Below, one piece after another: positions 2,084 to 60,640 of a stretch of DNA of 64,000 bases; positions within the stretch are counted from its first letter, which is position 1, and the number at the start of each line of letters is the position of its first letter. Both the position numbers and the translations under genes were made by a program. The stretch is taken from assembly GCA_964017185.1 (NCBI GenBank), contig OZ024879.1:43407883-43471882 (forward strand), read 5' to 3'. The stretch is from Rugalucina vietnamica. Its lineage: Eukaryota; Mollusca; Bivalvia; Lucinida; Lucinidae. The notes beneath the pieces were generated by a model. The model ran no database searches. It was not told where the DNA came from and saw nothing but the letters and a program-made list of their open reading frames with translations.

Positions 2084-2970
2084 GTGTGGTGCCAAAGAGA
2101 AAACAAAGTGTCTCAAACAATGATATTACCAACTTCACTCGAAAAGCCGTCTTTAACGGATAACATGTTACTCTCCACAAATAATGAAAATACCCTGGAG
2201 ACTTACCGTTTTGTGCATCTAGGAAAGACAGCCACCATGTTCTATGAAAGTTATGCTGGACATAGACTTTTGAAGACAACCTGCAATGGAATGTTAGAAT
2301 TTGACATGACATATGACATGTAATGCGGTTTTGCATGGCGCGAAAGACTTACTTGTAAAAAGTGTGGGTTTGTCGGAGAGAAGTTTAATTTATATGAGGA
2401 GATTAAAACAAGGACAGCAGGAGCTAAGGCTGCAGATATCAATCTTTCAGTTGCTAGTGGCTTGATGGATACATTATCTGGACCATCTGACTTGAGATAT
2501 TTGACTATGTGCCTACAGATACCACCACCTTCCTATCCTGCAATGCAGAAACACTGTAACATTGCTGCTGAAAAAGTGGAATCTGTGGCTGCAGCATCCT
2601 TTACCAGGGCTAGGCAGCAGGTGCAAAGAACCATTGTGGCTTGTGTCTTTGATGCTAGAGAGCTAATTGTTGCTGGCATTTACTCTCAGTACAACAACAG
2701 ATTACAATCTGCTGGTAAAAAAAACACCAATGCAACCAGCCACTCAAGTGACAACATCCATAATTGAGATGCAGACACAAACATGAAAGTAATTGGCATG
2801 CTTGTTAGCAACAAACTATGTGTCAAAGGAGACCATACCGGCTGCGACTTAAACGGTGGATGCGCTAAAAAATTTAGAAGACACAGTATTAAAAAATCAT
2901 GTGGTATCAATAAATGTGACTTTCAAATTATAAATGCAACTGCATTGAATATAAAATTACAAATGCAACT
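2084..2970 (+). pseudogene. Mutator-like transposase relic, N-terminal part
   Basis: One reading frame carries transposase-like text broken by TAA at 2321-2323 and TGA at 2765-2767. It includes TYRFVHLGK, then after the first stop a CxxC zinc-ribbon-like stretch (LTCKKCGFVGEKFNLY), then SGLMDTLSGPSDLRYL, the basic/helical QIPPPSYPAMQKHCN region, and after the second stop KVIGMLVSNKLCVKG. As I recall, these are hallmarks of the Mutator-like transposase domain proteins common in molluscs. After about 2870 the similarity appears to continue only with a one-base frame change in an A run. The next catalytic block (TTDGDS) is at 4346-4630, beyond a TIR element. The stops and frameshift make this a dead copy. 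The family identity is from memory of conserved motifs, not a search. Confidence 0.65.
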
Positions 2971-6476: not shown

Positions 6477-6513
6477 ATCTCTTGTTGGTTAATGCCTTGA
6501 CTCGCATTTTATC

Positions 6514-9500: not shown

Positions 9501-10038
9501 TAAGGCTGATTTAAATAGCAATTCTAAATATTTATACAGAAAAGTTTTAAATGCTTTAATAACTAAATTTATTCTTAATTGGAAAGAAAAAACACAGTCT
9601 ACTCATGGTGAAAATAAACACACAGGTAACAAGTTAAGAACGTATAGTCTTTTTAAACAAAATTTTACAATGGAAAAATATTTGCAATTTGGTAGCAGAA
9701 ATCAAAGAAGAAATCTTTGTAAATTCAGAATCAGTAATCACAAACTTGAAATAGAACAAGGTCGTTATAAAAATATCAGTGCAGACAAAAGATTATGCAA
9801 ATTATGTAAAAATAATGTAGAAGATGAAATACATTTTCTCTTAAAATGTCCAGTTTTAAATGATGTCAGGAATACTAATCTATCAAAGATCCATGAACTG
9901 TATCCAAATACTGAAAGATTGAATGACAAAGATAAATTAATTTGGCTTATGTCCACTGAAGATTCCAATTTGATTCACTTGGTATACCAGTTACTTTCAT
10001 CTCTCTCTGAAGAGAGAATTTTGAAGTTAAGGGCTTAA
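6514..10038 (+). CDS. Non-LTR retrotransposon ORF: AP-endonuclease + reverse transcriptase
   Basis: An uninterrupted 1,174-residue protein. Residues 1-280 are an exonuclease/endonuclease/phosphatase fold: ISCWNINGY, LLETH, GGDFKARVG (158-166) and LSDH ending at His272. Reverse transcriptase follows (about 520-860): ITPLHKKG, NYRGITISS, GFIKGNRTTDH, FVDFRRAFDTVWH, GVRQGDNLS and YADD with Asp757 and Asp758. A C-terminal zinc knuckle has C1095-x2-C1098-x8-H1107-x4-C1112. No RNase H and no upstream ORF1 were found. One odd residue: the Asn normally following GDF (a catalytic residue in APE-type endonucleases) is Lys162 (AAA at 6997-6999), so endonuclease activity is doubtful. The clade (L1/Tx1-like or another) is not resolved. 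The ATG at 6514 was chosen because the EEP fold begins within ten residues of it. The lack of stops indicates a young copy. Confidence 0.93.
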   Translation: MKMFENLMISCWNINGYSHKGYNKYTDQQFLKNLSQHDIVCLLETHCNSQESLTLPDYKAVHLNRPKLKSTRKPSGGLSVFVRTGIAKGIKFLNHENNDYIWLQLQKDFFGLSEDIYICFLYFSPEYSTYTQSLDYDLFDILEREIVKYQKHGKILIGGDFKARVGTENDFISQDSDNHLPLFDSYIIDSIPLQRRSYDHVLNTRGKQLLNLCVQCGLRFLNGRMLGDSLGQYTSHQPSGSSVIDYFIASESILSIIPCFSVQNLQADLSDHCQISLQIQTNIGTNTVEENLNPLPDKYIWTEDSNFLFQQALNSNVIQNEIKIFMEKNFDETDTHNAAADLSNIIKNAAAMSLKSTSKRKTVSVSNVKNKKKNKNLKWYDFSLQKARLVLMNKEKLFRKYSNDPYVRSSFYKTLKEFRKLRKHKLRQYRQGILDKLDSMRENNPSSYWKLLDELKNSDKIDKSENISSSEWIKHFSALNEQDSIPNSDILDKLRDLEKEKVFNELDYLISEKEISSCIKDLKNKKSSGCDSILNEMLKYGHYYLLQPLKKLFNLVLCSSKYPSLWSAGIITPLHKKGSLSDPSNYRGITISSCIGKLFNKILNRLMSFLEKRDILCKEQIGFIKGNRTTDHMFILKNLIDRHTHKGATPLYTCFVDFRRAFDTVWHDGLFYKLRKIGISDKYYQTIKSMYNSTNLSVKVGNYSTDTFSSFAGVRQGDNLSSTLFNIFINDIPSYFDSSCDPVCLTHNHISCLLYADDLVLLSNSEKGLQNCITKLSSFCKDWGMNVNLDKTKSLVFSSSRRLKDVHITFQGKDIENVKSYTYLGVTYNHLGCFNEAKHILYLKGLKGQFKLSKSFYPQPPNIKTSFHIFDHTIKPILTYGSEIWGTFSSSKLLSKQDNYLLNMYDKLPQEKLHLKFCKYILGVSSKATNLAVRGETGRYPLLIQIIANMFKYLTHIQKSKNNLLTEAYRLSVDLSNKGIDSWVNFIKSILSYLNIKADLNSNSKYLYRKVLNALITKFILNWKEKTQSTHGENKHTGNKLRTYSLFKQNFTMEKYLQFGSRNQRRNLCKFRISNHKLEIEQGRYKNISADKRLCKLCKNNVEDEIHFLLKCPVLNDVRNTNLSKIHELYPNTERLNDKDKLIWLMSTEDSNLIHLVYQLLSSLSEERILKLRA

Positions 10039-10326: not shown

Positions 10327-13300
10327 TTAAATAGAAGCCTTAAATTCCTCAATGGTCTTAGATAGGACCACTGAAGAAGGGAGACTATTCCAAACCGGAA
10401 TAGTTCTGGGGAAAAAGGAATTTTTCAGGGCATCACTATAGGCAAATGGTCTTGTGTATTGTGATTCATGTGATGCCCGAGTATGCCTTAGATTGGGTGC
10501 CGGGGTCAGGTATTTGTCTTTATCAAGAGACACTGTACCGGAGTGTATCTTGTAGAAGAAGGTTAAGGAGGACCGCTCCCTGCGAGACTCCAGGGATGGC
10601 CACTCAAGTTCGTCTAGCATTTCACCGACGCTACTGGTGTTCCTCCATCGCCTGCAGGTCCACCGGGCAGCAGTCCTCTGCACCTTCTCCACCATCTCAA
10701 TCTGAGTTTCATGATAGGGATGCCAAATAGGAGCTGCATACTCAAGTTGAGGCCGAACCAATGTTTTGTATGCAACTTCCTTAGTATGCCTAGGTGCCAG
10801 TGCCAAATTGCGCCGAAGAAAACCCAAAGTCTTAGTTGCCTTGCATGTAATTTCAGAAATGTGTTGACCCCAATCAAGATCATCTGTGATAGTTAAACCG
10901 AGGTATTTAGCGGACTGAACCTGTTCTAATGTTTGCTGATGCAGTGTGTAATTGAAATCTATATGCCTGCTTGGATGTAGCCGCGTCACCCTCATTGAAT
11001 GACATTTGCTAACATTGAATTTCATTTGCCAATCCATTTCCCATTTGGCCAAGCTATTCAGGTCATCTTGTAAAATTTGACAATCCAATGGTGACTTGAC
11101 ATTTCTGTATAAAACACAATCATCAGCAAATAGCCGAACAGATGACCTGATGTTGTCAGGAAGATCATTAATGAAAATAAGAAATAGGACCGGTCCTAAG
11201 ACCGATCCTTGTGGGACACCAGAAAGAACCGGGACTGGATCTGAGGCACGGCCATCTAATACCACTTTTTGAGAGCGCTCAGAGAGCCACGAGTCGATCC
11301 ACTTATGTGTAGATCCTCTAATCCCGTAGAAGTCAAGTTTGTATAATAACCTTTTATGTGGGACCTTGTCAAAGGCCTTAGCGAAATCCATGACAATCAC
11401 ATCCGTCTGCCTGTGGCCACGACCCACTGCTCGGTCCAGATTACTAACCAAATCATGATAAAACTGAACTAACTGGGTTTCGCAAGACCTTTGACTTCGG
11501 AACCCATGCTGACAGTCAGCAAGAATGTTTTCAAGAGCCAAGTGTTTGTTTATGTTGCTGACTATTATATGCTCTAGAGTTTTGCAACAGATACAAGTAA
11601 GCGACACCGGTCGATAATTAGCTGCATCGTATTTCTCACCTTTCTTAAATACCGGGGCTACATTTGCCTGTCGCCAATCGTCTGGTACAGCACCCTGAGC
11701 AAGCGACTCATTGAAGATATAGGTCAGTACAGGGGCAATTTCAGAACTACATTCCTTCAACACCCTAGCACTCAGGCCATCTGGCCCAGGCGCCTTATGT
11801 ATATTCAAATTATTCAACAGTTTAATGACCCCATTGGGGTCAACTGTAATTTCACCCATAGCGGTGAAAGGACTTGTGCCTTTGGAGGGGATTTCATCAT
11901 CTGATTCGCGAGTGAAGGCTGACTGAAACTGCCTATTACAAATATTAGCCTTATCCAAAGTGTCAGTCTTCAAGATACCATTTTCTCTAAGAGTATTGAT
12001 CCCAGACGCGTCTTTCTTAAGGGACTTGACAAATGACCAAAACTTTTTTGCCTTTTCATTTTTTCGGGGACAATCGGGATCAGGGTTATCATTTTCAAAG
12101 GAGAAGATATTGGTAATATGCTTCCAATATGCATCTCTAATGCTCTTTTGAACATGTGCTCTGAACCGTTTGTAATGGTTCTTAATGTCAGGGCTGCTTG
12201 ACTTGCGAGCACGAAAGTAAAGTTTATCACGTTTCCTTATCAAGCGTTTGATCGAGCTATCGATCCATGGTAAGCTATATTTTGTCTTGGTCATTTTTGA
12301 TGGAATAAACCTTTCAATAGCCGAGAGAACCTCCGACTTAAAACTGACCCACATGTCATTGACTGACACCTGACTATGGTCAGTTGAAAGGAACGAATCC
12401 CTATAGCGCGCTAGATGGTCATGGAGACCGTCCATATCCGCTCGTTTATATAGGAAAATCTTACGCGGGGCCTGCTGAATCCGTTTAGCCTTTATGTCAT
12501 ATTCAATATAGACAATGTCATGATCTGCTTTGCCGATCGGGGGCATCCCTTTAACACGGTTAATTGGGGATGGCGAGTTAGTGAAGAGTAAATCAAGGGT
12601 CTTGTCTTCTCGGGTGTGTATATTTACCGTTTGGGAGAGGCAGTGATCCTGTATTATGTCCACGAGTTTAGTCTGAACTGGCCTCTTTTTGACCCCCTCG
12701 GGTACCTGCATTGTGCTCCACTCAATATCACCACAATTGAAGTCACCGCCTACAAGAACATGGGCATTTTTATTTGACATAATCCGAGAAAGTGAAGTAT
12801 TAAAATCCTCAAGATATTTCAGTTCAAGCTCCTGAGTTGGGAACCTAGGGGGACGATAGAATGATCCAAGGTACAAAGTCCTACATCCAATAATGTTCAA
12901 CTTACACCAAATTATTTCGCACTTGGTGTCCAATTCCGGAGCTTCAGTACAGAGAAGATCACGCCTAAAAGCAATGAAGACACCACCATGCGCATCACTA
13001 GCTCTGTCTTTCCGGATAGCATCAAAGGAATCTGGGAAAATCTCTGAGTTTTTAATGTCTGGGGTTAACCATGACTCATTCCCCAATATGATGTCAGGTT
13101 TAGCCGATTCTATGACAGTGTGAATTTCAGCCTTTTTATTTTTAATTGACTGACAATTCATGATCAAAATTCTCAAGGGATGGTTCAGGACCGCCCTTTT
13201 GGTCCTGGGTTTTGCTTCTTTTGTTTGCACAATAGGCGAAGAAGCTGCATTGGGGGGGCCAATATTGTCTGGTATCGGACTGTCAGGCTCGGACAGGGAC

Positions 13301-13881
13301 GAAAGGGACTCAAATCTGTTGGATATCTCAAGAGAAGCTGTAGTGTCAAACAACGAAGTGGAAAAGTTTGGCATTCCACAACGTATGCATTCCCATGCTA
13401 TACTTTTGCTAAGTGATTTATTGTAAATCCCATACATAGTTGAAGTCATGCCTTGACAGTCTATATGGTACCAGATGTTGCATGAGTCGCAACAAATCCC
13501 GCGGTCATCCCATCCAACACTGACATCACACAGTCCACACGGAAAGTGAGAGTTGTCAATAAGGGATTCTGGACCAGGATTTGTTTCGGTGTCCCAGGAG
13601 TTACTTATCAGAAGAGTAAAAATGTATAAATGAATGAGCTTACCAGAGCGGTGATCTTTAAACCTGAGACTAGCCCTTAGAATAGAAACACTGCAAAAGT
13701 GTGGTACGTGAGCCATAAGTTGTTGGTCAATTGCTGTTCCGTGTATGCTGGAGTAAACTGGAAACAAGTTATCTGGAAGTCTCCCAATGTCATTGTCCTG
13801 TGTATTCCAAAAATGTGTCAATCTGATGGCCAACAGCAAGCCAGCAACAGAAAATAGCATGTCAAATAAGAAGTGCTTCAT
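10327..13881 (-). CDS. CR1/L2-like retrotransposon protein: 2A-like motif, PHD finger, endonuclease, RT
   Basis: 1,184 residues from the only in-frame N-terminal ATG (13881). The open frame extends 13 codons further but without ATG. In order: a hydrophobic N-terminus (MLFSVAGLLLAIRL), a DTETNPGP motif at residues 97-104, a C4HC3 PHD finger (CGLC...CCDSC...WYHIDC...WECIRC, about 115-168), an AP-type endonuclease (about 236-480: LRILIMNCQSI, NESWLTPD, GGDFNCGD, ADHDIV), and reverse transcriptase (VFKKGEKYDAANYRPVSL, QHGFRSQRSCETQL, VMDFAKAFDKVPH, GVPQGSVLGPVLF, FADD with Asp920 and Asp921). The C-terminus (IPVWNSLPSSVV) is the usual ending of this group. All catalytic motifs are present and there are no stops, so it may be recently mobile. 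PHD fingers are known in CR1-group proteins. Confidence 0.93.
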   Translation of the reverse strand: MKHFLFDMLFSVAGLLLAIRLTHFWNTQDNDIGRLPDNLFPVYSSIHGTAIDQQLMAHVPHFCSVSILRASLRFKDHRSGKLIHLYIFTLLISNSWDTETNPGPESLIDNSHFPCGLCDVSVGWDDRGICCDSCNIWYHIDCQGMTSTMYGIYNKSLSKSIAWECIRCGMPNFSTSLFDTTASLEISNRFESLSSLSEPDSPIPDNIGPPNAASSPIVQTKEAKPRTKRAVLNHPLRILIMNCQSIKNKKAEIHTVIESAKPDIILGNESWLTPDIKNSEIFPDSFDAIRKDRASDAHGGVFIAFRRDLLCTEAPELDTKCEIIWCKLNIIGCRTLYLGSFYRPPRFPTQELELKYLEDFNTSLSRIMSNKNAHVLVGGDFNCGDIEWSTMQVPEGVKKRPVQTKLVDIIQDHCLSQTVNIHTREDKTLDLLFTNSPSPINRVKGMPPIGKADHDIVYIEYDIKAKRIQQAPRKIFLYKRADMDGLHDHLARYRDSFLSTDHSQVSVNDMWVSFKSEVLSAIERFIPSKMTKTKYSLPWIDSSIKRLIRKRDKLYFRARKSSSPDIKNHYKRFRAHVQKSIRDAYWKHITNIFSFENDNPDPDCPRKNEKAKKFWSFVKSLKKDASGINTLRENGILKTDTLDKANICNRQFQSAFTRESDDEIPSKGTSPFTAMGEITVDPNGVIKLLNNLNIHKAPGPDGLSARVLKECSSEIAPVLTYIFNESLAQGAVPDDWRQANVAPVFKKGEKYDAANYRPVSLTCICCKTLEHIIVSNINKHLALENILADCQHGFRSQRSCETQLVQFYHDLVSNLDRAVGRGHRQTDVIVMDFAKAFDKVPHKRLLYKLDFYGIRGSTHKWIDSWLSERSQKVVLDGRASDPVPVLSGVPQGSVLGPVLFLIFINDLPDNIRSSVRLFADDCVLYRNVKSPLDCQILQDDLNSLAKWEMDWQMKFNVSKCHSMRVTRLHPSRHIDFNYTLHQQTLEQVQSAKYLGLTITDDLDWGQHISEITCKATKTLGFLRRNLALAPRHTKEVAYKTLVRPQLEYAAPIWHPYHETQIEMVEKVQRTAARWTCRRWRNTSSVGEMLDELEWPSLESRRERSSLTFFYKIHSGTVSLDKDKYLTPAPNLRHTRASHESQYTRPFAYSDALKNSFFPRTIPVWNSLPSSVVLSKTIEEFKASI
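13570..13593 (-). other. 2A-like (D-x-E-x-N-P-G-P) ribosome-skipping motif
   Basis: The codons encode DTETNPGP, just after a hydrophobic stretch (LYIFTLLISNSW) and before the PHD finger. The 2A consensus is D(V/I)ExNPG|P, with separation between G and P during translation. Here Thr replaces V/I and Trp precedes the Asp, so activity is uncertain. If active, it would release a leader of about 103 residues from the polyprotein. 2A-like sequences are known in several metazoan APE-type LINEs. Confidence 0.6.
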
Positions 13882-14109
13882 CTTCTTGCTATTTGTGACC
13901 TCTTGCGATATGAGGGGCAATTGACTGGTGTAGATTACTGGGAAATTCTCCTATCTTACTAAATCAACAATGAGTACAATCCTAATTTGGGAGGTTACCT
14001 ACATTTATTTGGTTTTTTCAATGTTTGTGTGTATGTGATAGTATATGTGATAAACTAGTAAGTTTTGTTATTTGCTCAGTTGTGGAGTATCCACTAGGTG
14101 AGGTATATG

Positions 14110-16424: not shown

Positions 16425-17517
16425 GAAAATACTATGTTATCTCAACCCGGGTTGGGGAGTCTCAAAGTTACAGATAATGTTATCTCAGCTTGGGTTGGGG
16501 TGTCTCAAAGTGACAGATAATGTAACCTCAGCTTGGGTTGGGGAGTCTAAAAGCGACAGATAATGTTTTCTCAACATGGGTTGGAGAGTCTCAAAGTGAC
16601 AGATAATGTTATCTTAACCTGGGTTGGGGAGCCTCAAAGTGACAGATAATGTTATCTTAACTTGGGTTGGGGAGTCTCAAAGTGACAGATAATGTTATTT
16701 TAACCTGGGTGTGGGAGTCTCAAAGTGACAGATAAAAAGAATCCATGATGGGTGGTCAGTGGAGAAAGGAAAATGTCAACCAGAGGGTCCATCCGTTCCA
16801 GTGGAAAACGAGGCCCTCCTTTCTCCACTGAACACCACTGATGGATTCTTTTTCTTACATACCCCGATTAGGCCTAAATTCATTTTACCGGTAAAGAAAC
16901 CTGGTACCGTGCTTTAACTCTGATGACGTAGTGTTTATTATGGATATGACGTCAAATGTAAATAAATCGTTTTTAAGGTCAAAAGAGATGCAGTTTTGAT
17001 TTGTTTTTCCTTGAAAACGAGCGTGAATCAAGATTATACCCAATGAATTCACACCAATTTAGTCTAGTTTTGTTAAACATAATTGCTGCAAGCAGCTGCA
17101 TTGGGCTAGAAACGATCGAATTCAGTCGCGTGCTTTTCTTATTTGTATGAGCAACCAAGCCAGCAGTGTAAGATCGATTTATCTACCACCACCAAAATAC
17201 CGGATTTCTTCTATCTTTATGATAGAGATATGTAAGAAAATGTTATCTCAACTTGGGTTGGGGAGTCTCAAAGTGACAGATAATGTTATCTTAACTTGGG
17301 TTGGGGAGTCTCAAAGTGACAGATAATGTTATCTTAACTTGGGTTGGGGAGTCTCAAAGTGACAGATAATGTTATCTTTAATTGGGTTGGGGAGTCTCAA
17401 AGTGACAGATAATGTTATATCAACCTGGGTTGGGGAGTCTCAAAATGATAAATGATGTTTTCTCAACCTGGGTTGGGGAGTCTCAAAGTTACAGATAATG
17501 TAATCTCAACAATTAGG
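16425..17517 (+). repeat. 43-bp minisatellite in two blocks
   Basis: The unit reads roughly TCTCAACCTGGGTTGGGGAG, then TCTCAAAGTGACAGATAATG, then TTA. About seven units lie at 16425-16734 and six to seven at 17240-17517, with the sequence between being an insertion. Units differ by point changes (AACTTGG/AACCTGG). Confidence 0.9.
16735..17239. mobile_element. ~505-bp insertion splitting the minisatellite, with internal hairpin
   Basis: The left block stops at GACAGATA and the right block resumes at ATGTTATC. Joining them recreates the regular unit GACAGATAATGTTATC, so this is a precise insertion. Inside, 16734-16770 and 16818-16855 form an imperfect inverted repeat (AAGAATCCATGATGGGTGGT against its complement). 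TTTCTTACATA also occurs inverted near 16850 and 17235. No ORF. The class of element is unknown. Confidence 0.6.
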
Positions 17518-23208: not shown

Positions 23209-24728
23209 AGCTCACCTGAGCCGTCAGGCTCACAAGGTGAGCTTATAGGATGGCCATGATCCGTCGTCCGTCCGTCCGTCCGTCGTCCGTCCGTCGTCCA
23301 CCATTTTCAAAGATCTTCTTCTCTGAAACAGCTTGGCCAATCAAAGCCAAATTTTACATGAAGCATCTATGGGAAGGGGGAACCAATGTATATATAAATA
23401 ATCCAGGTCACATGACCAAGATGGCCGCCATGCCCATATATGGTAAAAACCCTTCAAAAATCTTCTCCGGAACCACTGGACCGATTTCAACCAAACTTGG
23501 CATGAAGCATCGATGACTCAAGTACTACAATGTGTATATAAATCATGACCTTGCGGTGACCTTGACCTATTTTACGGCAAGGTCAACATAGGTCGCCTTT
23601 GCATTTGAATGGGAAAAATTGTTAAATTGTCATTTTAAGGAAAAATCTTGCAGAAAATGAGCAGTAGGACTGAATATTAATGATTCTGAAAAAATTTGGG
23701 CACCAGGGGCTCATCCGCCCCCACCCCGGGGCAATATACATGTATATTATCATAATATTCAAACATCTTCTTCTCTGAAACCGCTTGGCCAATCAAAGCC
23801 AAATTTTACATGAAGCATCTATGGGAAGGGGGAACCAATGTGTATATAAATAATCCAGGTCACATGACCAAGATGGCCGCCATGCCCATATATGGTAAAA
23901 ACCCTTCAAAAATCTTCTCCAGAACCGGTGGACCGATTTCAACAAAACTTGGCATGAAGCATCGATGACTCAAGCACTACAATGTGTATATAATTTATGA
24001 CCTTTTGATGACCTTGACCTATTTTACGGCAAGGTCAATATAGGTAGCCAATGCATTTGAATGGGGAAAACTTTTAAAATGTAATTTAAAGTGAAAGTCT
24101 TGCAGGAAATGGGAAGTAGGACTGAAAATTAATGATTCTGAAAAAAATTGGACCCCAGAGGCTCATGTGCCCCCACACCGGGGCAATATACATGTATATT
24201 TCCATAATATTCAAACCTCTTCTCCTCTGAAATCGCTTGGCCAATCAAAGCCAAATTTTATGTGAAGCATCTATAGAATTGAGGAATCAATGTGTATATA
24301 AATAATCTAGGTCACTTGACAAAGATGGCCGCCATGCCCATATATGGTAAAAACCCATCAAAAATCTTCTTCTCTGAAACCAATAGACTGATTTCAAGGA
24401 AACTTGGCGTGAAGCATCGATGGCTAAAGTACTCCAATGTGTATATAAATCATGACCCTGTGATGACCTTGACCAGGTTTATGGCAAGGTCAACATGGGT
24501 TGCCTATGCATTTGAATTGGGAAAACTGTTAAAATGTCATTTGAAGGGAAATGCCAGCAGGAAATTGGCAAATGGACAGAATATTGAAGATTCTGAAAAA
24601 AGAAAATGGCCCAAGGGCTTCATCTGCCCCTGCACTGGAGTTAAATACCATAATATTCAAACATGTTTATTGGTATATGCAGCAGATCTCAGGTGAGCGT
24701 TTACAGGACCATTGGTCCTCTGGTTTAA
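23209..24728 (+). repeat. Family B repeat: three ~450-bp internal units between short TIRs
   Basis: The left end AGCTCACCTGAG and right end CTCAGGTGAGCG are inverted repeats. Just inside the left end is a self-complementary stretch (GCTCACCTGAGCC...AAGGTGAGC) followed by (CCGT)n-like runs. The body is three tandem units beginning TCTCTGAAACAGCTTGGCCA at about 23319, 23770 and 24222. Each contains AAGATGGCCGCCATGCCCAT and paired TGACCTTGACC boxes. Open frames here (reading KMAAMPIYGKNPSKI) are by-products of the repeat. Similar repeats are, to my knowledge, abundant in molluscs. Reverse copies lie at 32283-32712 and 56928-57135. Confidence 0.8.
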
Positions 24729-28367: not shown

Positions 28368-29369
28368 CGTGGGGCGTTCGGAAAGTTCGAACAATTGCCT
28401 TGTCAATCATATAATATTCATAGTAAAACAAAAAGAAACACACTTATTTTAACTTCAACTTATCCTCTATAAATGCTGTGAAAACCAAGATGATGCACAA
28501 AGGCATACTAAGAATATTTCCATTACAAAAAGGCATGGTAAGGGTACCCGGAGCACGCCAAAGTCATAACGACGTTGCGATAACGTCAAACTTGTTCTAA
28601 TCAAGTTGGTTATCATCACATATTCTCAGCATAATCACCAACACTGTGCATTTCATCTGTTTGTCCATCCTTTTGTAATAAGTTTCCATACGCCAGTTTC
28701 CGTATGTGGTGAAAAAGCTATCTGCGTCTATTTTGATTTTTTTTTTCGATGAATCACCAAAATCGCGCAATTCTTAATGGAACACGATTCCCCTGCCGAT
28801 TGGTCACCATTAATTGATTTTATTCCACTCTTAAAACATGAGTGTCACTTAAACACAAATACTGGGCTACATTTTTCATATTTTCCCAGTTTATTTAACC
28901 AGGCTAAATGTTATTGTTAAAGTTTTATGAAGAAAAAAAACTGAATTGCATAACCCTTTGCAACGCAACGACACAGTTTCACGCCATAGATTTTCCCTAC
29001 AACACGCGAAATAAAGGACCATATCTTTTTTGTGAAACTTCAAATTGATTTGAAATTTTCAGGAAATAATGCAATAGGGCCGAAATATTACATGGCGGTT
29101 CCAGGCTTTGCTGACGTTCAATAGATAGCCAGAAATTGTGTTTATTTCTTCAAGAACTGGTTTATAAAAATGATATTTTTCAGACTGCTCTGGGTACCGA
29201 TGATGACGTTGCCACGACAACCTGTATTTTGGGCTTTCCTTGTCACCTTTCTTTCATTTTTCCAGAATTTAAGTATGAATGGAAGTTTACGCACACCAAC
29301 ATTCTAGTACATTGATTGAAAATTATGGGAGATATAACAAAATTACACGAACTTTCCGAACAACCTACG
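28368..29369. mobile_element. Mariner-like non-autonomous element (1,002 bp, TA target)
   Basis: The left end is CGTGGGGCGTTCGGAAAGTT. The right end, reverse-complemented, is CGTAGGTTGTTCGGAAAGTT. Both are flanked by TA (28366-28367 and 29370-29371). The GTTGTTCGGAAAGTT core is typical of mariner terminal repeats. No transposase frame or D,D34D motif could be read inside, so it is either a deleted derivative or very old. Confidence 0.75.
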
Positions 29370-29379
29370 TATCGTTTTC

Positions 29380-29653
29380 TCGCGCTCATGAACCATGTGT
29401 TCACTTTAACAGTTCGAAGGAGACTCTCCGTGATACTGCCAAACCACCAGTATATCAATTAGCTACCCGGAGCCTAAAAAGACACCTCCATTTACTTAAT
29501 GATCGAGTCCATTTATTTCCTAATGGAACATTACCATTTCAACAAGTAATATTAAAGCCTGAAGATATACATTCAATTAAGTTACCCGGTCAATTTGACC
29601 AGGTACATGTATGCATTAAGTGCTATGTCAGCACAACATTATTTAGGTCATAG
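29380..29653 (+). CDS. Unidentified open frame, possible exon or relic
   Basis: About 90 codons reading HEPCVHFNSSKETLRDTAKP ... YQLATRSLKRHLHLLNDRVH ... VILKPEDIHSIKLPGQFD, ending in TAG just before a family A copy. Composition looks protein-like, but I recognise no domain. The 5' side is cut by the right end of the mariner-like element, so any upstream part is separated by it. It may be a gene fragment or chance. Confidence 0.25.
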
Positions 29654-29664
29654 GGACCCAGGCC

Positions 29665-30341
29665 CTTTAATTGCACGCCGGTGGGTCGGGCGTCAGACTC
29701 TATGATGGCCCCGACATAAAGCTATTCATTTTAGTTGGTTGGGGCCGGAGCTTCTTGTCTGTTGCTTGGCCCACCGGGGTCCAACTGGTGTTTTTCTTTT
29801 GCTCCGGAGTTAGTGGGTTATTCGGCGCCCAGGGATCTCCATCGTCGGGCAGCTTACTCAGTCTGTGAGTCCTGGTTTTTGATTCATCAGCATGTTTATC
29901 ATGATTTATTTGTTTGTTCTTGATGATTCATTGACTAGTTAGAGATTCACCACGAGGGCCGACTAACTAACTAAATGTTATGAACCACTGCAGAAGCTGA
30001 GGGTGAGGTTATGGCCATGTAAAACCGGTTTAAGCCCGCCAGTAACTTTGTGTTACTGATCGTTCCAAGTCGATACTTCTGTAGTGGTTCTTTTTGTTTT
30101 ATGGCTTGGTGCTTGGAAAATTTTTTGTGCTGTTGGCGCCTTATGTATGTTTTCATATTTTTAGTTAAGTTAAGGTAACTGAGTAGCCACCTATTGGGAA
30201 AATAGCTGCTCTTTCGGCTTACGATATGTTTCATGGTATAAGTACCTGACTGTTAGTTTTTTTTTTTTTTCCCACCTCGGTTTTTGGAGTGGGAATCTTT
30301 TTCTGATTGCGCCTTTTCCTGATCTTTGCCTACTTGTACCT
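29665..30341 (+). repeat. Family A repeat, long copy
   Basis: Full-length version, matching 20490-21165 with scattered changes. Same 5' start (CTTTAATTGCACGCCGGTGG), same 3' hairpin and end. Confidence 0.85.
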
Positions 30342-34509: not shown

Positions 34510-35107
34510 CTCTGGTTCTTGAGTTTCTGCACTGATGTATGTCGTTGTCTGCTTGCGTGTCACTTGTTGTTGTCTGTCTGGGCAGTTTATCTAGAATCCA
34601 CTCCGCTCTATGTCTTCTATTATGTCCTTTTTTAAGAGTGTCTATATATCTGAACTACCATTCCACCGAACCATCCTTCTTGAAAAGTGCTGCAACATTC
34701 TTTATCAAATTTCCCAGTCGTTCAAAGTCTAATTTCGAATAGTCTTCTTTCACAAAGCCTGGCTGTCCTTTTGGAATTATCACAGTGTCTCTCTGTTTCT
34801 TAAAAAAACTTTCTTTCAACACTTTCCACCTCTGATTAACTTTTCCTTTATAACTAATCTTTACACCTTCGTCAATTTTTGCAACTTTAAAATGTAATGG
34901 CTGTGTGTGTTTCTTTAATGGGTTTATATAATTCTCCATCCAAGATTTAACATTGAACATATGTGTCACTTCCTGGCTATTGGGCAGCAGCTTCAGAAGA
35001 TCCTCCTTCGTCTCCACATCCGTTTTTCTCAGCGCAGCAGCAATGTGAGAGAAATGTGCATCAACATCCTCGTGGGTGTTGCCCACCATTAAGAAGGACA
35101 GGTGCAC
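34510..35107 (-). pseudogene. DUF7869-like exon, probably interrupted
   Basis: Minus strand. The acceptor GTATTTTCTAG opens a phase-0 frame: VHLSFLMVGNTHEDVDAHFS then HIAAALRKTDVETKEDLLKL, a long charged segment with YKGKVNQRWKVLKESFF, and FVKEDYSKLDFERLGNLIKN. The VGxTHEDxD block is the signature I associate with DUF7869 proteins, which are expanded in invertebrates and thought to be transposon-derived. The frame meets TAG at 34655-34657 right after GSVEW, but coding-like sequence continues in the same frame (FRYIDTLKKGHNRRHRAEWI), then apparently in another frame, to a donor AGAG|GTATGT. Both a stop and a frameshift are therefore likely. If TAG is instead the true stop, the exon is intact. 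Confidence 0.6.
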
Positions 35108-35870: not shown

Positions 35871-37821
35871 TCCTGATCATCGCTTTCCTGATCATCGCTT
35901 ACTTTTACCATATACATCACGATGGTCCGAGCATGGGCTGAACGATACAGTTTTACTTGTGATATATGATTGACATGATATTTAATTCGATCGACATGAC
36001 CATTAATTGGGCTGACATGACTTTTGATTAATTGAATGGAGAGACGTTTGAGGAGGAAGGATAGTGAAGGCAGTTTCTACTTAAAAAAATGTATTCTTTT
36101 ATTTATAAACACTTAATGCTCAAATTTCACCCATAAAGGGTTATTTATATATATATATGATTCTTTCCCCTCTTAAGCTGCGCCATAGTCCATAGAATAG
36201 CTCCCCTCGCGTCGCGCCTTGATTCGCATAACCATAGATAGCTCTGTCTGCTTCTGGGTCAAGGTCAATTCAGGTCGTGGCAAGGTCAAGGTCGTAAGAG
36301 ACAATCCAGCTCTTCTATGAAGCATAACTTCATAATACGAAGAGATGAACAGCCTCATTCTCGTGCGTTATGTATTGAATGTGATTCTTAAGTATTATCA
36401 ATATTACTTAAACATTATTGAAAGTATGTAATTATTACTTTAAATAGCATTTATAATTCTACGTGTTCTGAGCACAGCATTACTTATGCATAAACCTTAC
36501 AGAATTTGATTTGCTTGGTTGCAAGAACATTGAATGGCTGTATTTAATATTTCAAAACTGAGACCATAAATATTCAGGGGCATCGTATTAGCATAACTAA
36601 CACGTTGATAAGGGAGCACTAGCATAACTAGCACATTATAAGAGAGCACTAGCATAAACTAGCACATATCTAGGAAGTTCTAGCATAACCTGAACTTAAA
36701 CATTACAACAGAAATGTAACCAAGCCTATATATTAAATGCTTAATTGCCAATTAACTATTAAACTTTAGCTTCAAATGTATAAACAGTCTCTTTAAAATT
36801 CATTTAAGGAAAGCCTTAATTAAAAAATCATGGTAATTATCCATATTTAAACAGCAATAAACTTTAAAACTCGAAACAAAACAAGAAAGGATAGCATTAT
36901 CTTTAGTCCTCTCAGGCTCTTTTGGGTTGTCACTGTATACACATAGAGGTCACGATTCAGGTCGATGTCTATAAATAGCTCCAGGTGATCTCCAAATTCG
37001 TAGGGGAAGCCCTCACGTGGTAACTGTCATCTATTCAAAGTACTGTATTCATACGCGGTGTCGCCCAAGGTCAGCTAAGGGTCATTGCACCATCACAGTA
37101 TTGGAAGAGCCTGAAAGTCTAAGATCAAAAATAAGAAAACATTTCAAATTAACAAGAACAAGATAATTCAAACCCTGAACTCCTCAGAATAACAACTGTA
37201 ACCACACATCAACAGCCATCCTTACTTCTTAGCTCTGCAGTAGCCTAGAATAAAAATATAGTCATAAACCACGAAATCTAGTTACACTATTTCAATTCGA
37301 AAGCTGACTTTTTGCGAGAGTGTGTCTGCTCCAGGGGATGCGGTCGTTTATATATGGGGGGCCGGGCCGCGCTGTACGAACTTGTTGGATTTCTGTGGAC
37401 CATGTGACCAGTGTTTTGCTCGCTCTTGTACGATTCTGTAGGATATATGCAAATTCAGCGTGGCTAATTTAAATATAACAGCATTGTGACAAAATGGGAA
37501 AGGTGAGATTCTCCTCTCGCCTACTTCACCTGTAACAATATATGAATGGAATCGCGATTCGAATCACCTGCAAATGAGAATAACTATTTATTAGTAAGAT
37601 TTTTAGAATTTATATGTCCGTTCAGAGACATAAAGCTATCGTTCTTCTCGTCTTATCGGCAACTACGCCACCATAGTGGAACAGCCAAATTTCGGATAAC
37701 CTCGGTTCTGGCCATTTCAGTCGTTGTAAAACACGAAAATGGAGAACTCCCGCCACTTGTCAAAAGTTTGTCATCTTTCTGCAGCCTGCAAGCATAGTTA
37801 GCTAACAAATTGGATACAATT

Positions 37822-39019: not shown

Positions 39020-40321
39020 CTAATTACCCCTTTTAAATTCTCGCGTTGCTCTGTCCATCCATTTTGGCCTCTTCTGTCCAACATATCTCTTCAATTTGTC
39101 GTGATGCACCACACGATTATCTCCCTTTTCCAAGCCAATTAAGTATGTCACATCACTGAGTCTCTTGAGCACGACGCATAGTACAGCAAAGTGTAGCAAG
39201 CACAGCACCTACCCCTAGGCTACCTAACGGTGCCTTCGGCTTCTGGGGAATCTTGTCAGCAGCACAGATATCACACGCCAGCACCCAGTTATTTACCTCA
39301 TCTCTCATCTCATACCAGTAGTATTTCTGTTTTACTCTTTCATAGGTCTTCCGACAGCCAAAATGACCACCCATTCTAGCATCATGGACTTCCTTCAAGA
39401 CCTCCTTCCAGAGATTTCTGGGAATAAGTAGCTGAAAATACTTACTAAGGCCATTTTTCTGAACACATTATTTCACAATCAAACCATTGTCTAGGCTAAG
39501 TGAATTCCAGATAACCCAATAATGCCGTGTGTCTGGGCTTTTTGTCACAACATCAGTACTTGAGGGTCGCTTACGTCCCTTCAACAGATTTTCATACACA
39601 AATGAAATGTCGGGATCCTCTTTCTGCATGTTAGCCAAGTTTTCATCTGTATAATTACTCAAAATTACCTTTACTGGTAGAACAGCTGGGGTCTCAGGAT
39701 CTCGCCTTGCTCCATCCCCTGTAGCCTGACCTTCATGTGTCTTTTCTTGCGTACCATAAGATCGTGTTTCTACAGCTCTAACATCTTCTCTGACATCAGT
39801 GTTTCCCTGGACTTCTGTGTGAGTTGTCTCCTTTTCACAATACTCACCATTCTGTAAATCACAGCTCAACTCTACTTTACTATTGCCCGTCTTCTCCACA
39901 TACACGGGTTGCAACCTCTTCACACATTGGACCATATTCTACTTCATACAACTAAGACTATCAACAAGCGGATTACTAGCCGTGACTTTGAGTTCACCCC
40001 TTGACTCATTACTTTGTCCATTTTTAATTGGGCCCATGGACTTCGTAATACATCTCACCTGCTTAACACTGTGTTGATTCTCACCCTCTTCCAATGCTTG
40101 GTAACTCACTTCCTTGCTCATTCCTGAACTTCCCAACAGTAGAGTACTCCTCATATCTATAGCTTTCTTTTCACACTTCTTACAAGGCCAGCATTTCAGC
40201 GGCTCTAAAGTGTCTACTTCACTACACTGACAGTCCCAAGGACTAACACAACGAGACATTCCATCTGCATTACAATGCCCACCGGATTTTCGATAACTCA
40301 CCGTAAAGTCATATGCGGACC
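39020..40321 (-). pseudogene. Ty3/gypsy pol remnant (RNase H end to integrase), internally deleted
   Basis: Minus strand, in order: QWSAYDFTVSYRKSGGHCNA then DGMSR (end of RNase H), a linker with PDISFVYENLLKGRKRPSST and RHYWVIWNSLSLDNGLIVK, the integrase H2C2 finger (VHDARMGGHFGCRKTYERVK, then QKYYWY and CDIC), and the integrase C-terminus (LKRLSDVTYLIGLEKGDNRV, VHHDKLKRYVG). The catalytic core with its D,D-35-E residues is missing between PLGSLGVGA and the C-terminal piece. Stops break the frame near 39936 and 39399-39467. RT, protease and gag are absent. Coding sequence runs directly into the right copy of the 2.6-kb duplication, so that junction is not a normal LTR border. Confidence 0.85.
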
Positions 40322-40391
40322 ATTGCTTTCCTGATCATCGCTTACTTTTACCATATACATCACGATGGACCGAGCATGGGCTGAACGATAC

Positions 40392-40640: not shown

Positions 40641-40824
40641 CACTTGTGATATATGATTGACATGATATTTAATTCGATCGGCATGACCATTAAATGGGCT
40701 GACATGACTTTCGATTAATTGAATGGAGAGACTTGAGGAGGAAGGATATTGAAGGCAGTTTCTACTTTAAAAATGTATTTTTTTATTTATAAACACTTAA
40801 TGCTCAGATTTCACCCATAAAGGG

Positions 40825-40825
<1 letters not shown>

Positions 40826-40884
<59 letters not shown>
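40826..40884. repeat. (AT)n microsatellite, expanded
   Basis: About 29 AT units, against about 6 at the matching place in the left duplicate (36147-36158). Confidence 0.9.
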
Positions 40885-40887
<3 letters not shown>

Positions 40888-42336
40888 TCTTTCCCCTCTT
40901 AAGCTGCACCATAGTCCATAGAATAGCCCCCCTCGCGTCGCGCCTGGATTCGCATAACCATAGATAGCTCTGTCTGCTTCTGGGTCAAGGTCAATTCAGG
41001 TCGTGGCAAGGTCAAGGTCGTATGAGACAATCCAGCTCTTCTATGAAGCATAACTTCATAATACGAAGAGATGAACAGCCTCATTCTCGTACGTTATGTA
41101 TTTAATGTGATTCTTAAGTATGACCAATATTACTTAAACATTCGTGAAAGTATGTAATTATTACTTTAAATAGCATTTATAATTCTACGTGTTCTGAGCA
41201 CAGCATTACTTATGCATAAACCTTACAGAATTTGATTTGCTTGGTTGCAAGAGCATGGAATGGCTGTATTTAATATTTCAAAACTGAGACCATAAATATT
41301 CAGGGGCATCGTATTAGCATAACTAACACGTTGATAAAGGAGCACTAGCATAACTAGCACATTATAAGGGAGTACTAGCATAAACTAGCACATATCTAGG
41401 AAGTTCTAGCATAACCAGAACTTAAACATTACAACAGAAATGTAACCAAGCCTATATATTAAATGCTTAATTGCCAATTAACTATTAAACTTTAGCTTCA
41501 AATGTATAAACAGTCTCTTTAAAATTCATTTAAGGAAAGCCTTAATTAAAAATCATGGTAATTATCCATATTTAAACAGCAATAAACTTTAAAACTCGAA
41601 ACAAAACAAGAAAGGATAGCATTATCTTTAGTCCTCTCAGGCTCTTTTGGGTTGTCACTGTATACACATAGAGGTCACGATTCAGGTCGATGTCTATAAA
41701 TAGCTCCAGGTGATCTCCAAATACGTAGGGGAAGCCCTCACGTGGTAACTGTCATCTATTCATAGTACTGTATTCATACGCGGTGTCGCCCAAGGTCAGC
41801 TAAGGGTCATTGCACCATCACAGTATTGGAAGAGCCTGAAAGTCTTAAGATCAAAAACAAGAAAACATTTCAAATTAACAAGAACAAGATAATTCAAACC
41901 CTGAACTCCTCAGAATAACAACTGTAACCACACATCAACAGCCATCCTTACTTAGCTCTGCAGTAGCCTAGAATAAAAATATAGTCCTAAACCACGAAAT
42001 CTAGTTACACTATTTCAATTCGAAAGCTGACTTTTGTGAGAGTGTGTCTGCTCCAGGGGATGCTGTCGTTTATATATGGGGGGCCGGGCCGCGCTGTACG
42101 AACCTGTTGGATTTCTGTGGGCCATGTGACCAGTGTTTTCCTCGCTCTTGTACGATTCTGTAGGATTTATGCAAATTCAGCGTGGCTAATTTAAATATAA
42201 CAGCATTGTGACAAAATGGGAAAGGTGAGATTTTCCTCTCGCCTACTTCACCTGTAACAATATATGAATGGAATCGCGATTCGAATCACCTGCAAATGAG
42301 AATAACTGTTTATTAGTAAGATTTTTAGAATTTATA

Positions 42337-44948: not shown

Positions 44949-45026
44949 AAAATTAAATTCTGGAGTCCAACGTATGCAAGGTACGAGAATCGACATGAAA
45001 TATAAAATTCCACCCAGACACCAGGC
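44949..45026 (+). repeat. 78-bp target-site duplication, left
   Basis: Identical to 48840-48917 (AAAATTAAATTCTGGAGTCC ... CACCCAGACACCAGGC). The two copies flank the I-like LINE exactly. Confidence 0.9.
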
Positions 45027-46903
45027 TGGGAACTAGCCACTGTAATACCAATTCCTAAACCTGGAAAGGACCATGCAGAACCTAACAGTTATAGACCGAT
45101 AGCACTTACAAGTTGTCTTTGCAAAACCTTGGAGAGAATGATAAATGTAAGACTTGTTCGGTACTTAGAAAGTAATAACCTTATATCTCCTGTTCAGTCG
45201 GGCTTCCGTTCTGAACGAAGTACCAATGACAATTTAGTAAGACTGGAAACTTTTATTCGTGATGCCTTTGTTGCAAAGGAGCATGTTGTTGCTGTGTTTT
45301 TTGACTTGGAGAAAGCTTATGATACCACATGGAGACATGGTATTATGCAAGATCTACATGATCTCGGAATACGAGGCAGATTAGCTACATTTATTGAAAA
45401 TTTCCTTGCGGATCGCTGGATGCAGGTTCGTGTTGGATCGACTTTATCCGAAAAGTTTGATCAAGCACAGGGTGTCCCACAAGGGAGCATCTTGTCTACA
45501 ACTTTGTTCAATATTAAGATAAACAGCATAATGGATTGTCTGGATCCTAAAACAGATGGATCCTTATAAGTAGATGATTTCTGTATGTGTTACAGGTCAA
45601 AAAGCATGAGAACTATCGAAAGGCACTTACAGCAGTGCATTAACAGAATAGAAAACTGGGCCTCACATAATGGTTTCAAATTTTCCAAGTCGAAAACACA
45701 GTGTGTGCATTTCTGTCAATTACGGAAAGTACACAATGATCCTGAACTGTATTTATATGGGTCTCTTATTCCAGTAGTTGAAGATTTTAAATTTCTTGGA
45801 GTTCTTTTTGATCGTAAACTTTCTTTTATACCACATATCAAGTACTTAAAAGCCAAATGTCTAAAAGCATTAAATTTGTTAAAAGTATTATCACACACAG
45901 ACTGGGGTGCTGATCGCACTGTCCTTCTCCAGCTTTACCGTTCCCTCATTCGTTCAAAATTAGATTATGGATCCATCGTGTATGGATCGGCAAGACCATC
46001 GTATATCAGTTCTCTTGACACAGTACACCACCAAGGTATAAGATTAGCTCTAGGTGCTTTTCGAACATCACCTGTACAAAGCCTCTATGTTGAGGCTGAA
46101 GAGCCATCTCTATATTTACGACGAGAGAAACTTGCCCTACAGTACGCCATTAGAATTGCGGCTAATCCATCAAATCCAGTTCATAAGGTGTCTTTTCCGC
46201 CATATATTTCTGAAGAAGTCGTACAGCTTTATGAAAGTAAACCAAAGGTTATCCGGTCCTTTGGTTTACGAGTTGCACCACTTTTAGAATCAGCAAACAT
46301 CCAAAAAGATAAAATAGAAGAATATTTTGTTTCCGAAATACCATCTTGGTGCATTAGAAAACCAGAAGTTAATTTGACTCTACATTCAGGGAAAAATCCG
46401 AATCAAATCCACACCTTCTTAAAGAAAGTTTTCATCAACTACAATCTCAAATTATCGACTATCAATGTATTTATACGGATGGTTCAAAAGAAGAAAACAA
46501 AGTTGGTTGTGCTACTTTTACAAACGGCAATTGCAAAACGTTACGTTTACCTGATGGCTCTTCGATTTTCACAGCGGAAGCTAAAGCTATAGACTTAGCT
46601 TTAGACTTCATAAATGAATGTAACTCAAAGGACAAATTTATTATATTTTCTGACTCTATGTCAGTTCTTCAAGCCTTAAACCATACATCATCCAAAAACC
46701 CTCAAATACAAAAACTATTAATAAAACATCATACCATCTCAGAATTGAAAACAATTATTTATTGCTGGGTTCCCAGTCATATAGGCATATATGGAAATGA
46801 AAAAGTTGATAAGAACGCTAAAGAATCGTTAAATCTAGAAGAAAATAAAATATAAAGGTTTGATCCTTTGGAAGCAGTAAAAACATTCAAAGGGAGATAG
46901 TAT

Positions 46904-46949
46904 GGACTATATTGCACAATTTCGGGTAATGAACCCTCGTCAGTAGCCC
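46904..46949 (-). ncRNA. Hammerhead ribozyme, type I, unit 1
   Basis: 46 nt on the minus strand: stem I GGGCUA/UAGUCC (6 pairs, one G-U), core CUGACGA, stem II GGGU/ACCC with loop UCAUU, GAAA, stem III AUUG/CAAU with a 2-nt loop, cleavage triplet AUA. Predicted cleavage falls between 46910 and 46909. All invariant core residues are present. The very short stem III is characteristic of hammerheads in Penelope-like elements and retrozymes. Confidence 0.9.
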
Positions 46950-47283
46950 TTTTTAAACCGGCAACGAACGCCAGACTATAATTGTGCTGCAATTTCGAGA
47001 ATTTACACGAGGAGTCTAAATCAAAGACATATTCCTTAATTGGGTCAAATAATTAAAAAAAAAAATGCTTAGAAGTATGTTTCTAAACGTGAGTGTTTTG
47101 AACACTCTGAATATCTTTACTGATCTCAAAGGACCGAAATAAAAATATAATCTGCACTATGGATGATGTACGGGGAGACTTTTTACGGCCGCCACACGGC
47201 ACAACACCAGCTGCAGTAATAGCAAATAGAATATAAAGGTTTGATCCTTTGGAAGCAGTAAAACATTCAAAGGGAGATAGTAT

Positions 47284-47329
47284 GGACTATATTGCACAAT
47301 TTCGGGTAATGAACCCTCGTCAGTAGCCC
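47284..47329 (-). ncRNA. Hammerhead ribozyme, type I, unit 2
   Basis: Sequence identical to the unit 1 ribozyme, 380 bp downstream in window coordinates. Confidence 0.9.
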
Positions 47330-47661
47330 TTTTTAAACCGGCAACGAACGCCAGACTATAATTGTGCTGCAATTTCGAGAATTTACACGAGGAGTCTAAA
47401 TCAAAGACATATTCCTAAATTGGGTCAAATAATTAAAAAAAATGCTTAGAAGTATGTTTCTAAACGTGAGTGTTTTGAACACTCTGAATATCTTTACTGA
47501 TCTCAAAGGACCGAAATAAAAATATTATCTGCACTATGGATGATGTACGGGGAGACTTTTTACGGCCGCCACACGGCACAACACCAGCTGCAGTAATAGC
47601 AAATAAAATATAAAGGTTTGATCCTTTGGAAGCAGTAAAAACATTCAAAGGGAGATAGTAT

Positions 47662-47707
47662 GGACTATATTGCACAATTTCGGGTAATGAACCCTCGTCA
47701 GTAGCCC
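47662..47707 (-). ncRNA. Hammerhead ribozyme, type I, unit 3
   Basis: Sequence identical to units 1 and 2, 378 bp from unit 2. Confidence 0.9.
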
Positions 47708-48040
47708 TTTTTAAACCGGCAACGAACGCCAGACTATAATTGTGCTGCAATTTCGAGAATTTACACGAGGAGTCTAAATCAAAGACATATTCCTAAATTG
47801 GGTCAAATAATTAAAAAAAAATGCTTAGAAGTATGTTTCTAAACGTGAGTGTTTTGAACACTCTGAATATCTTTACTGATCTCAAAGGACCGAAATAAAA
47901 ATATAATCTGCACTATGGATGATGTACGGGGAGACTTTTTACGGCCGCCACACGGCACAACACCAGCTGCAGTAATAGCAAATAAAATATAAAGGTTTGA
48001 TCCTTTGGAAGCAGTAAAAACATTCAAAGGGAGATAGTAT

Positions 48041-48086
48041 GGACTATATTGCACAATTTCGGGTAATGAACCCTCGTCAGTAGCCC
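48041..48086 (-). ncRNA. Hammerhead ribozyme, type I, unit 4 (partial unit)
   Basis: Identical ribozyme. The enclosing unit is cut at 48232, the array border. On the minus strand this is the first ribozyme of the array. Confidence 0.9.
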
Positions 48087-48839
48087 TTTTTAAACCGGCA
48101 ACGAACGCCAGACTATAATTGTGCTGCAATTTCGAGAATTTACACGAGGAGTCTAAATCAAAGACATATTCCTAAATTGGGTCAAATAATTAAAAAAAAA
48201 TGCTTAGAAGTATGTTTCTAAACGTGAGTGTTTAAACGTGAAACCGTTTTTAAAATTCCTTATGTCAATTTTAAACCTTTTATTAACGAGTACATCTCTG
48301 ACAAATGGCAAACAATCTGGAATGGAGCGAATTTTGATAAATTGAGGGAAGTTGAACCGATCGTTAAACGTCCGAAAGTAATTCATAAACTTTTGAGACG
48401 AGAAGAAATCGTTCTTGCTCGTCTTCGAATTGGCCATACAAGAATAACACATTCCCACTTATTAAAGCGAGAAGATCAACCTATATGCATTGGCTGTGAC
48501 ACACCATTTACAGTGAAACACTTTCTTTTAGAATGCACTGACTTTGCAGCAAAGCGAGTTTCCTGTTTTCAAGCTAATAACTTGAGAGAATTGTTTAAAG
48601 ATGTACCCGTTGGAAACATTTTATCATTTCTTAGACAAGTAAATCTGTTTTATAAAATATAACTTTTTAACCATCAATGTTATTATTTCATATATCGTTT
48701 CTTTACAACGACATTTATATCTTACTAAGTGTTACATTTTAATACGATTTCAATGTATTTTATCTTTTTACCTTGTTAGACGCTAATGACCCATCAGGGT
48801 TGATGCGTCGTTAAACAACAAACAAACAAACAAACAAAC

Positions 48840-48917: not shown

Positions 48918-49270
48918 GTCTGAGACATTTCATTTGGAGATGGCACACAAACTATTTTATGCCTGAGGACTGAGACATTTCAATTGGAGATGGCACACAA
49001 ACTGTTTTTATGTCTCAGGACTGAGACATTTCAATTGGAGATGGCACACAAACTGTTTTTACATGTGCGTCTGAGGACTGAGACATTTCAATTGGAGATG
49101 GCACACAAACTATTTTTATGCCTGAGGACTGAGACATTTCAATTGGAGATGGCACATAAACTGTTTTTATGTCTGAGGACTGAGACATTTCAATTGGAGA
49201 TGGCACAAAAACTGTTTTTGTTTCTGAGGACAGACATTTCAATTGGAGATGGCATACAAACTGTTTTACA
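48918..49270 (+). repeat. ~50-bp minisatellite, about seven units
   Basis: Unit: GAGGACTGAGACATTTCAAT then TGGAGATGGCACACAAACTG then TTTTTATGTCT. The repeat-encoded frame (LEMAHKLFLCLRTETFQ) is open but is a by-product. It runs directly into a family A 3' fragment. Confidence 0.9.
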
Positions 49271-60204: not shown

Positions 60205-60452
60205 ATTTTTGCATCTTTCAACAGGGTAGTCAATAAAAAGACTGGTATAATCCAAATGGGACCAGATATATTAAACTTTGGTAAGAATATGAATCTAAAC
60301 CGATAATACAAATTTTCTGATTTCTCAGAATACCCTCACTTGTCTCAAAGGACCAACAGGAAAACATAATCTGCACTATGGATGATGTACGGGGAGACTT
60401 TATAGGACCGCCACACGGCACAACACCAGGTGCAGTAATAGCAAATAAAAAT
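60205..60452 (-). mobile_element. Retrozyme-like element, fragment lacking the hammerhead
   Basis: Minus strand. The part at 60335-60440 matches array units (CTGCACTATGGATGATGTAC, CCGCCACACGGCACAACACC), and the part at 60205-60330 matches the 37.8/43.3 kb copies (TTTGCATCTTTCAACA, TGATTTCTCAGAAT). It therefore links the two hammerhead subfamilies into one family and supports a common monomer of about 380 bp. Confidence 0.8.
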
Positions 60453-60640
60453 AAAACTGATAATCTAAGAGTTTTGTTTTAACATAACAGACAAAAGAGA
60501 AAGCTTCATCAGAAACCCTATGGAAGGTTAAGACAAATCTAATCGAGACAGCTAATATCATCGCCGGCACCTTGAGCGGCATAGGAAGCTCGGCGCTGAA
60601 ACAGAATTTTCAGTATGTGTTAACGTGCATTTAGGCAAGT

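Follow-up and report, generated by a model that had tools for sequence, protein, structure and literature searches.

The question raised by this locus was whether a short tandem repeat in the genome of Rugalucina vietnamica is a mobile element multiplied through a self-cleaved, circular RNA, or whether a repeat or gene of another kind carries a hammerhead-like sequence. The analysis covered a stretch of 64,000 nt (hereafter the window). The array was placed at 46843-48233 on the minus strand (the hammerhead strand, called the sense strand below) and is composed of 3.67 head-to-tail units of 378-380 bp, namely 380, 378 and 379 bp plus a partial one of 254 bp, with nothing between them. The units differ pairwise at 0-3 positions, plus run-length indels, and are 98-99% alike. 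The near-identity claimed in the earlier note was thus retained, whereas its unit length of 377-381 bp and its limits of 46850-48232 were corrected to the values above. Within 46700-48400, no repeats were found besides the units themselves, and no inverted pairs of at least 12. The unit is AT-rich (GC = 0.37) and lies within the 150-450 bp and the low-GC range expected of metazoan non-LTR retrozymes. The longest frame of the unit, 110 stop-free codons on the minus strand, is matched in length by only 4% of 2000 shuffled circular units and has no family match in Pfam. In viral contigs, no copies were found with two exact patterns, and one protein-guided scan matched 23 stretches, 0 of which were confirmed.

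Four motifs of 46 nt with the full type I hammerhead core are located on the minus strand at 46904-46949, 47284-47329, 47662-47707 and 48041-48086 (A17 at 46910, 47290, 47668 and 48047, respectively; predicted cut of the first between 46910 and 46909), exactly where they had been reported. They are identical, one per unit, and the catalytic core (CUGACGA, GAAA and U16.1-A17) was found complete in 4/4 copies by descriptor and by inspection. Stem I (GGGCUA/UAGUCC, 6 bp) and stem II (GGGU/ACCC, 4 bp) agree with the earlier description, whereas stem III was read as a hairpin of 3 bp, including A15.1-U16.1, with the tetraloop GUGC, because the 4 bp given before would leave a loop of 2 nt. A loose type I hammerhead descriptor was run on the whole window and on 60 first-order Markov shuffles of it. 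The shuffles gave a mean of 0.03 matches of any quality, and 0 with stem I of at least 6 bp and stem II of at least 4 bp; the match of the four motifs is beyond chance. Elsewhere in the window the descriptor found one poor place, at 10957-11131 on the minus strand within a non-LTR frame. Its two overlapping alternatives have a stem I of 4-5 bp and an arm III of great length, a quality to be expected by chance. At unit positions ~292-320 (e.g. 47727-47755), a GAAA, a possible stem of 4-5 bp and a UA resemble the 3' half of a hammerhead. The idea of a further half-hammerhead here, 73 nt upstream of the true motif, was tried (P 0.027, but with the pair picked by eye), and the claim was dropped after an ungapped whole-unit test gave P 0.91, which is not exceptional.

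The covariance check by Rfam that had been proposed before did not bear the motif out, as no hammerhead family scored above threshold, an outcome that the earlier note had listed among those speaking against its reading. No hammerhead reached its gathering score anywhere in the window, and at E<=10 over 46800-48300 there were four matches, all to other families and far under their cut-offs. When 76 bases around the motif were compared with 4227 Rfam families, a single match was obtained, to RAGATH-1-hammerhead (RF03152), on the correct strand and in the correct register, at a score of 13.3 bits where the cut-off is 56.3 (E 3.4). The sub-threshold score is read as the low information of a short motif with small stems and not as absence, since nothing is missing from the conserved core; a hammerhead motif whose core is complete can escape curated RNA models when these are applied at threshold.

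Circular folding of the three full units gave z values of -4.1, -4.2 and -3.3 for the sense strand and of -0.4, -1.2 and -0.1 for the antisense strand (60 shuffles each), and a highly self-paired circular RNA is accordingly predicted for the sense strand only. For the isolated 46-mer, the minimum free energy (MFE) is -12.5 kcal/mol versus -6.8 kcal/mol for the hammerhead fold, with stems I and II common to both. The arm of stem III is predicted to pair over 8 bp with the upstream GCACAAUU in the MFE circle; the hammerhead is not the MFE fold, and forcing it in the circle costs 6.8 kcal/mol.

The array splits the reading frame of a non-LTR element with RVT_1 and broken ORFs. The left part of this element is at 45006-46843 (plus strand, RVT_1 and RNase H in broken ORFs; RNase H domain, PF00075, at 46373-46855), and the right part, with no Pfam family, is at 48243-48662 (plus strand; C-terminal region at 48228-48662). 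In the relatives P0001 and P0002, NLEETVFKIPYV is read unbroken across the insertion point with no insert, and the array was therefore inserted later than the host element. A candidate target duplication of 4 bp, GAAA, was seen by eye at 46841-46844 and 48240-48243 (plus strand). It is ambiguous, because the right-hand GA may belong to AAACGTGA at 48234-48241 (plus strand, also by eye), a second copy of the array's 48220-48227. As a criterion of membership, a metazoan non-LTR retrozyme was taken to have no LTR, PBS or PPT and a target duplication, if present, of more than 4 bp; the candidate here is of at most 4 bp and ambiguous. Shortly downstream of the interrupted element, a 51-bp minisatellite of 6.8 copies occupies 48920-49267.

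Several other features of the window were recorded. Long open non-LTR frames of 1181 and 1207 aa, stop to stop, are at 6493-10038 (plus) and 10327-13950 (minus); both have endonuclease and RT domains, and the second also has a PHD finger under the Pfam cut-off. Fragments at 2324-2767 (plus) and 34655-35107 (minus) match a Mutator-like transposase (PF20700) and DUF7869 (PF25273). At 16434-17510 and 23306-24601, a 43-bp minisatellite (two blocks) and a 452-bp unit in 2.9 copies, which overlaps a 137-aa open frame, were found. A SECIS_1 element at 29694-29761 (plus) scores 37.4 bits, over a gathering cut-off of 35, and it is therefore probable that a selenoprotein gene ends there; the ORF upstream of it (29279-29653) has no Pfam match. 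Direct repeats at ~36001-37277 and 40688-42000, 97.7% identical over 1137 bp (6 kb compared), may be LTRs belonging to a young element; the second copy contains a (TA)n run, and the two ORFs between the copies, at 39471-40334, have no Pfam match.

For the relatives of the array, the unit's open minus frame was used as the query and gave 815 ORF translations at E<=10, of which 120 were listed, all from the source 'ena'. What is said on the family derives from ORF translations that were selected by similarity, in a search that finds open frames only. Among the 120 listed, P0136, P0152 and P0163 cover at least 54 nt of the unit twice (a span of more than one unit), from which it follows that tandem copies exist elsewhere; twelve more flagged translations overlap by 1-16 nt only, as frameshifts would. 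The absence of multimeric copies elsewhere, named by the earlier note among the refuting outcomes, is thus contradicted by 3/120 translations, and a dispersed multicopy family with tandem copies beyond the window is suggested. The hammerhead-coding stretch is covered by 86/120 listed translations, and all seven core-coding residues are kept in 59 of the 86. At the stem III loop, the residue in the 86 is A in 65, V in 16 and another one in 5, and the second frame at the loop, in six relatives, has R (2), Y (2), C (1) and S (1). The simplest nucleotide reading would be loops of GCGC, GUAC and GUGC, all of which can pair with themselves once G-U pairs are counted; neither the S case nor the five other residues agree with this reading.

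The ends of the copies were compared by counting unit positions from the first base after the cut. The sense-strand 3' end of the array, and the proposed start of reverse transcription, is at 46843-46846 (minus strand), 64-67 nt past the cut; A residues common to host and insert make the exact base uncertain. Among the 120 listed relatives, 28 have a tail of at least 5 residues past the end of homology. The first 25 residues of each tail were aligned to the three unit frames and the tail was taken as foreign at p>=0.1, by which 11/28 tails are foreign; by whole tails the number is 9, with P0198 (p 0.01) and P0208 (p 0.08) removed. Seven of the 11 foreign ends (7/9 by whole tails) are at positions 62, 67, 70, 73, 73, 76 and 79, and the remaining ones are at 148, 151, 163 and 196. 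The seven clustered ends carry seven different tails, five of which begin immediately behind ...NLYILF or one residue further on. For ends spread evenly over 62-205, the binomial P of 7/11 in the cluster is ~1e-4, with an interval whose centre was preset by the end of the present array (66/67) and whose 18-nt width was not preset. P0237 may be a frameshift, in which case the count is 6/10; P0136, P0221 and P0240 are similar by eye and were left out of the count for their short tails. The 5' starts in the same list scatter, 40/52 heads being not unit-like and starting at 14-35 and 237-375.

A second list was obtained by searching with residues 62-110 only (583 matches, 120 listed, 61 of these new). 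It gave 19 tails, of which 11 were foreign: eight at 181-196, one at 67 and two at 223. The cluster at 181-196, in which several of the eight ends share tails among themselves by eye, looks like other subfamilies that keep the core and diverge beyond it. A fixed 5' end at the same place was considered on 14/31 foreign starts at 47-62 in the second list and is not claimed, because this list was selected by the query region 62-110. A recurrent 3' end together with scattered 5' ends suggests one fixed start of reverse transcription, and the origin of the array by reverse transcription of such an RNA, as proposed earlier, gains support from the 3' end common to other copies. In the parts of the retrozyme literature covered by a limited search, a fixed start site for retrozymes was not found stated; what appears new here is the recurrent 3' end, ~66 nt past the putative cleavage site, in relatives with different tails.

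In the sense direction, a conserved core of the unit has its beginning at the proposed start site or slightly ahead of it and continues beyond that site. The core of unit 3 (47879-47987, minus strand) has 99/109 columns identical to 60342-60450 (minus strand), the core of a diverged partial relative without hammerhead that spans 60324-60455; by analogy with unit 3, the cores of units 1 and 2 were placed past the proposed start at 47123-47231 and 47500-47608 (minus strand), respectively. The adjoining stretch of the relative has 80/131 columns identical. On the low-coordinate side of its core, weaker similarity continues and is reached by 0/500 shuffles, and the other flank has no significant similarity (P 0.086). 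The stretch 60324-60455, with its ATG frame and acceptor-like AG, was at first taken for a host exon that the unit had captured. Exon capture was rejected because the weaker similarity continues upstream and because the minus frame of the stretch (by eye) has P as do 67/110 relatives there. No Pfam family is matched by the ORF at 60635 downstream, which says little.

Because of the motif, the tandem AT-rich units of ~380 bp, the lack of a recognised domain, and a large family with tandem copies, the array matches published metazoan non-LTR retrozymes. Its motifs are intact, its near-identical units are inserted in a foreign gene, and its large family has a recurrent 3' end. Read jointly with a mechanism of cutting, circles and a fixed start, it is very probably a non-autonomous metazoan non-LTR retrozyme, and the retrozyme interpretation of the earlier note is supported. 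The term metazoan is backed within the sequence by the SECIS element, by the retrotransposons and by the agreement with animal elements already published. By this mechanism, the minus-strand transcript would cut itself at each site of the 46910|46909 type, and the monomers of ~379 nt would be closed into circles by a host ligase (RtcB-type, from the literature). The reverse transcriptase would come from a different element, in all likelihood a Penelope-like one; it would start at a fixed place ~66 nt past the cleavage site and go round the circle several times, leaving a tandem array with a fixed 3' end and a variable 5' end. Self-cleavage, RtcB-type ligation and reverse transcription by another element are drawn here from the literature, and circles and expression are presumed with them. 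As the element fits a described family, the novelty is modest, and the fixed start is the part worth following. More tentatively, and with less than even likelihood, the core of ~110 nt, conserved between subfamilies, might be the binding site of a Penelope-like enzyme that copies the circle from the fixed start, the retrozyme being a stripped-down Penelope template. If true, ribozyme, circle and tandem array would be joined in one mechanism; the recurrent 3' end with different flanks points to a defined start site and to a possible recognition element, both of them testable in the in vitro Penelope system.

Counted against this best explanation were tandem growth by DNA recombination, the missing Rfam match at threshold, a hammerhead that is not the MFE fold of the circle, and the different clustering of foreign ends in the second list. 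As a rival reading, the array would be an ordinary satellite with a relic hammerhead, grown by unequal exchange or replication slippage and with no active RNA stage, to which the tandem and nearly identical units, the lack of an Rfam match at threshold and the eight bases repeated at one junction would all be agreeable. Against it stand the identical and fully intact motifs in all four units, the core-coding residues kept in 59/86 relatives and the strand-specific RNA fold, and exchange leaves the similar 3' ends despite different flanks unexplained; a satellite of this kind is considered improbable.

The 3' end past the ribozyme also recalls a Penelope-like tail, and type I hammerheads together with tandem pLTRs are features of Penelope-like elements (excerpts of PMC7761336 and PMC11167929), by which the array could be a piece of such an element (a tandem pseudo-LTR) and not a separate non-autonomous one. 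Units of 378-380 bp placed head to tail leave no room for an RT and GIY-YIG frame, however, and the longest frame is without a Pfam match; stem III is present here, whereas the Penelope variants are described in PMC7761336 as being without stem III or without the loop contacts, a weak distinction. This origin is judged very unlikely. Least credible of all is that the 110-codon minus frame encodes a real small protein and that the resemblance to a hammerhead is incidental. Its stop-free length, rare among shuffled units, and its openness in many relatives would speak for a protein, but the search could find open frames only, 15/28 of the tails examined continue in another unit frame (p<=0.01), as frameshifts would, and Pfam holds no match. 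The preferred reading thus remains that of a retrozyme.

Elements of this kind are already known from mussels, corals and salamanders, and the comparisons below rest on portions of the cited papers. The retrozymes of Mytilus galloprovincialis (PMC7229834) are alike in the type I hammerhead, the tandem units of ~350-390 bp, the low GC and the many copies; the likeness to the mussel retrozymes MN642551-MN642576 is by description and not by sequence. Some mussel circles are an exception among animal retrozymes in that the hammerhead is not left free (PMC7229834), which the predicted blocked hammerhead of the array fits. The hammerhead repeats of newt and axolotl (330-350 bp; PMC7229834) are alike in the tandem units, a short stem III with a small and maybe self-complementary loop, and possible action as dimers, and one axolotl hammerhead has a palindromic loop like those suggested for the relatives here; unlike in these repeats, stem III of the array has 3 bp with GUGC. 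Plant LTR retrozymes (PMC7761336) are also ribozyme-bounded, non-coding units thought to move via circles, with type III hammerheads 600-1000 bp apart, LTRs, PBS and PPT, whereas the array has type I hammerheads at ~380 bp.

Which enzyme moves animal retrozymes is not demonstrated in the portions of PMC7229834 and PMC11722881 used; the candidates put forward there are enzymes of LINEs or of Penelope-like elements, the latter on the grounds of co-occurrence, a tandem layout and hammerheads in common. The unit of the array differs from Penelope-like elements in being without reverse transcriptase or endonuclease and in having stem III. According to the part of PMC11167929 drawn on, the PAc enzyme starts internally, 111-118 nt into the ORF, with the hammerhead cut at +26, and needs RNA up to +172. 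PAc is thus alike in a fixed internal 3' end, at a derived 85-92 nt past the cut versus ~66 nt here, and in its need for RNA past the start, where the conserved core of the array lies relative to the proposed start. In the same source, insertion in vitro was unaffected in PAc hammerhead mutants, the substrate was mainly RNA that had not been processed, and reads ending at the cut were absent; PAc differs, therefore, in that cutting is not needed for insertion and circles are not involved. Since insertion was unaffected in those mutants, the analogy itself requires neither cutting nor circles, and the parallel in start site between PAc and the array is to be taken as an analogy of two comparable layouts.
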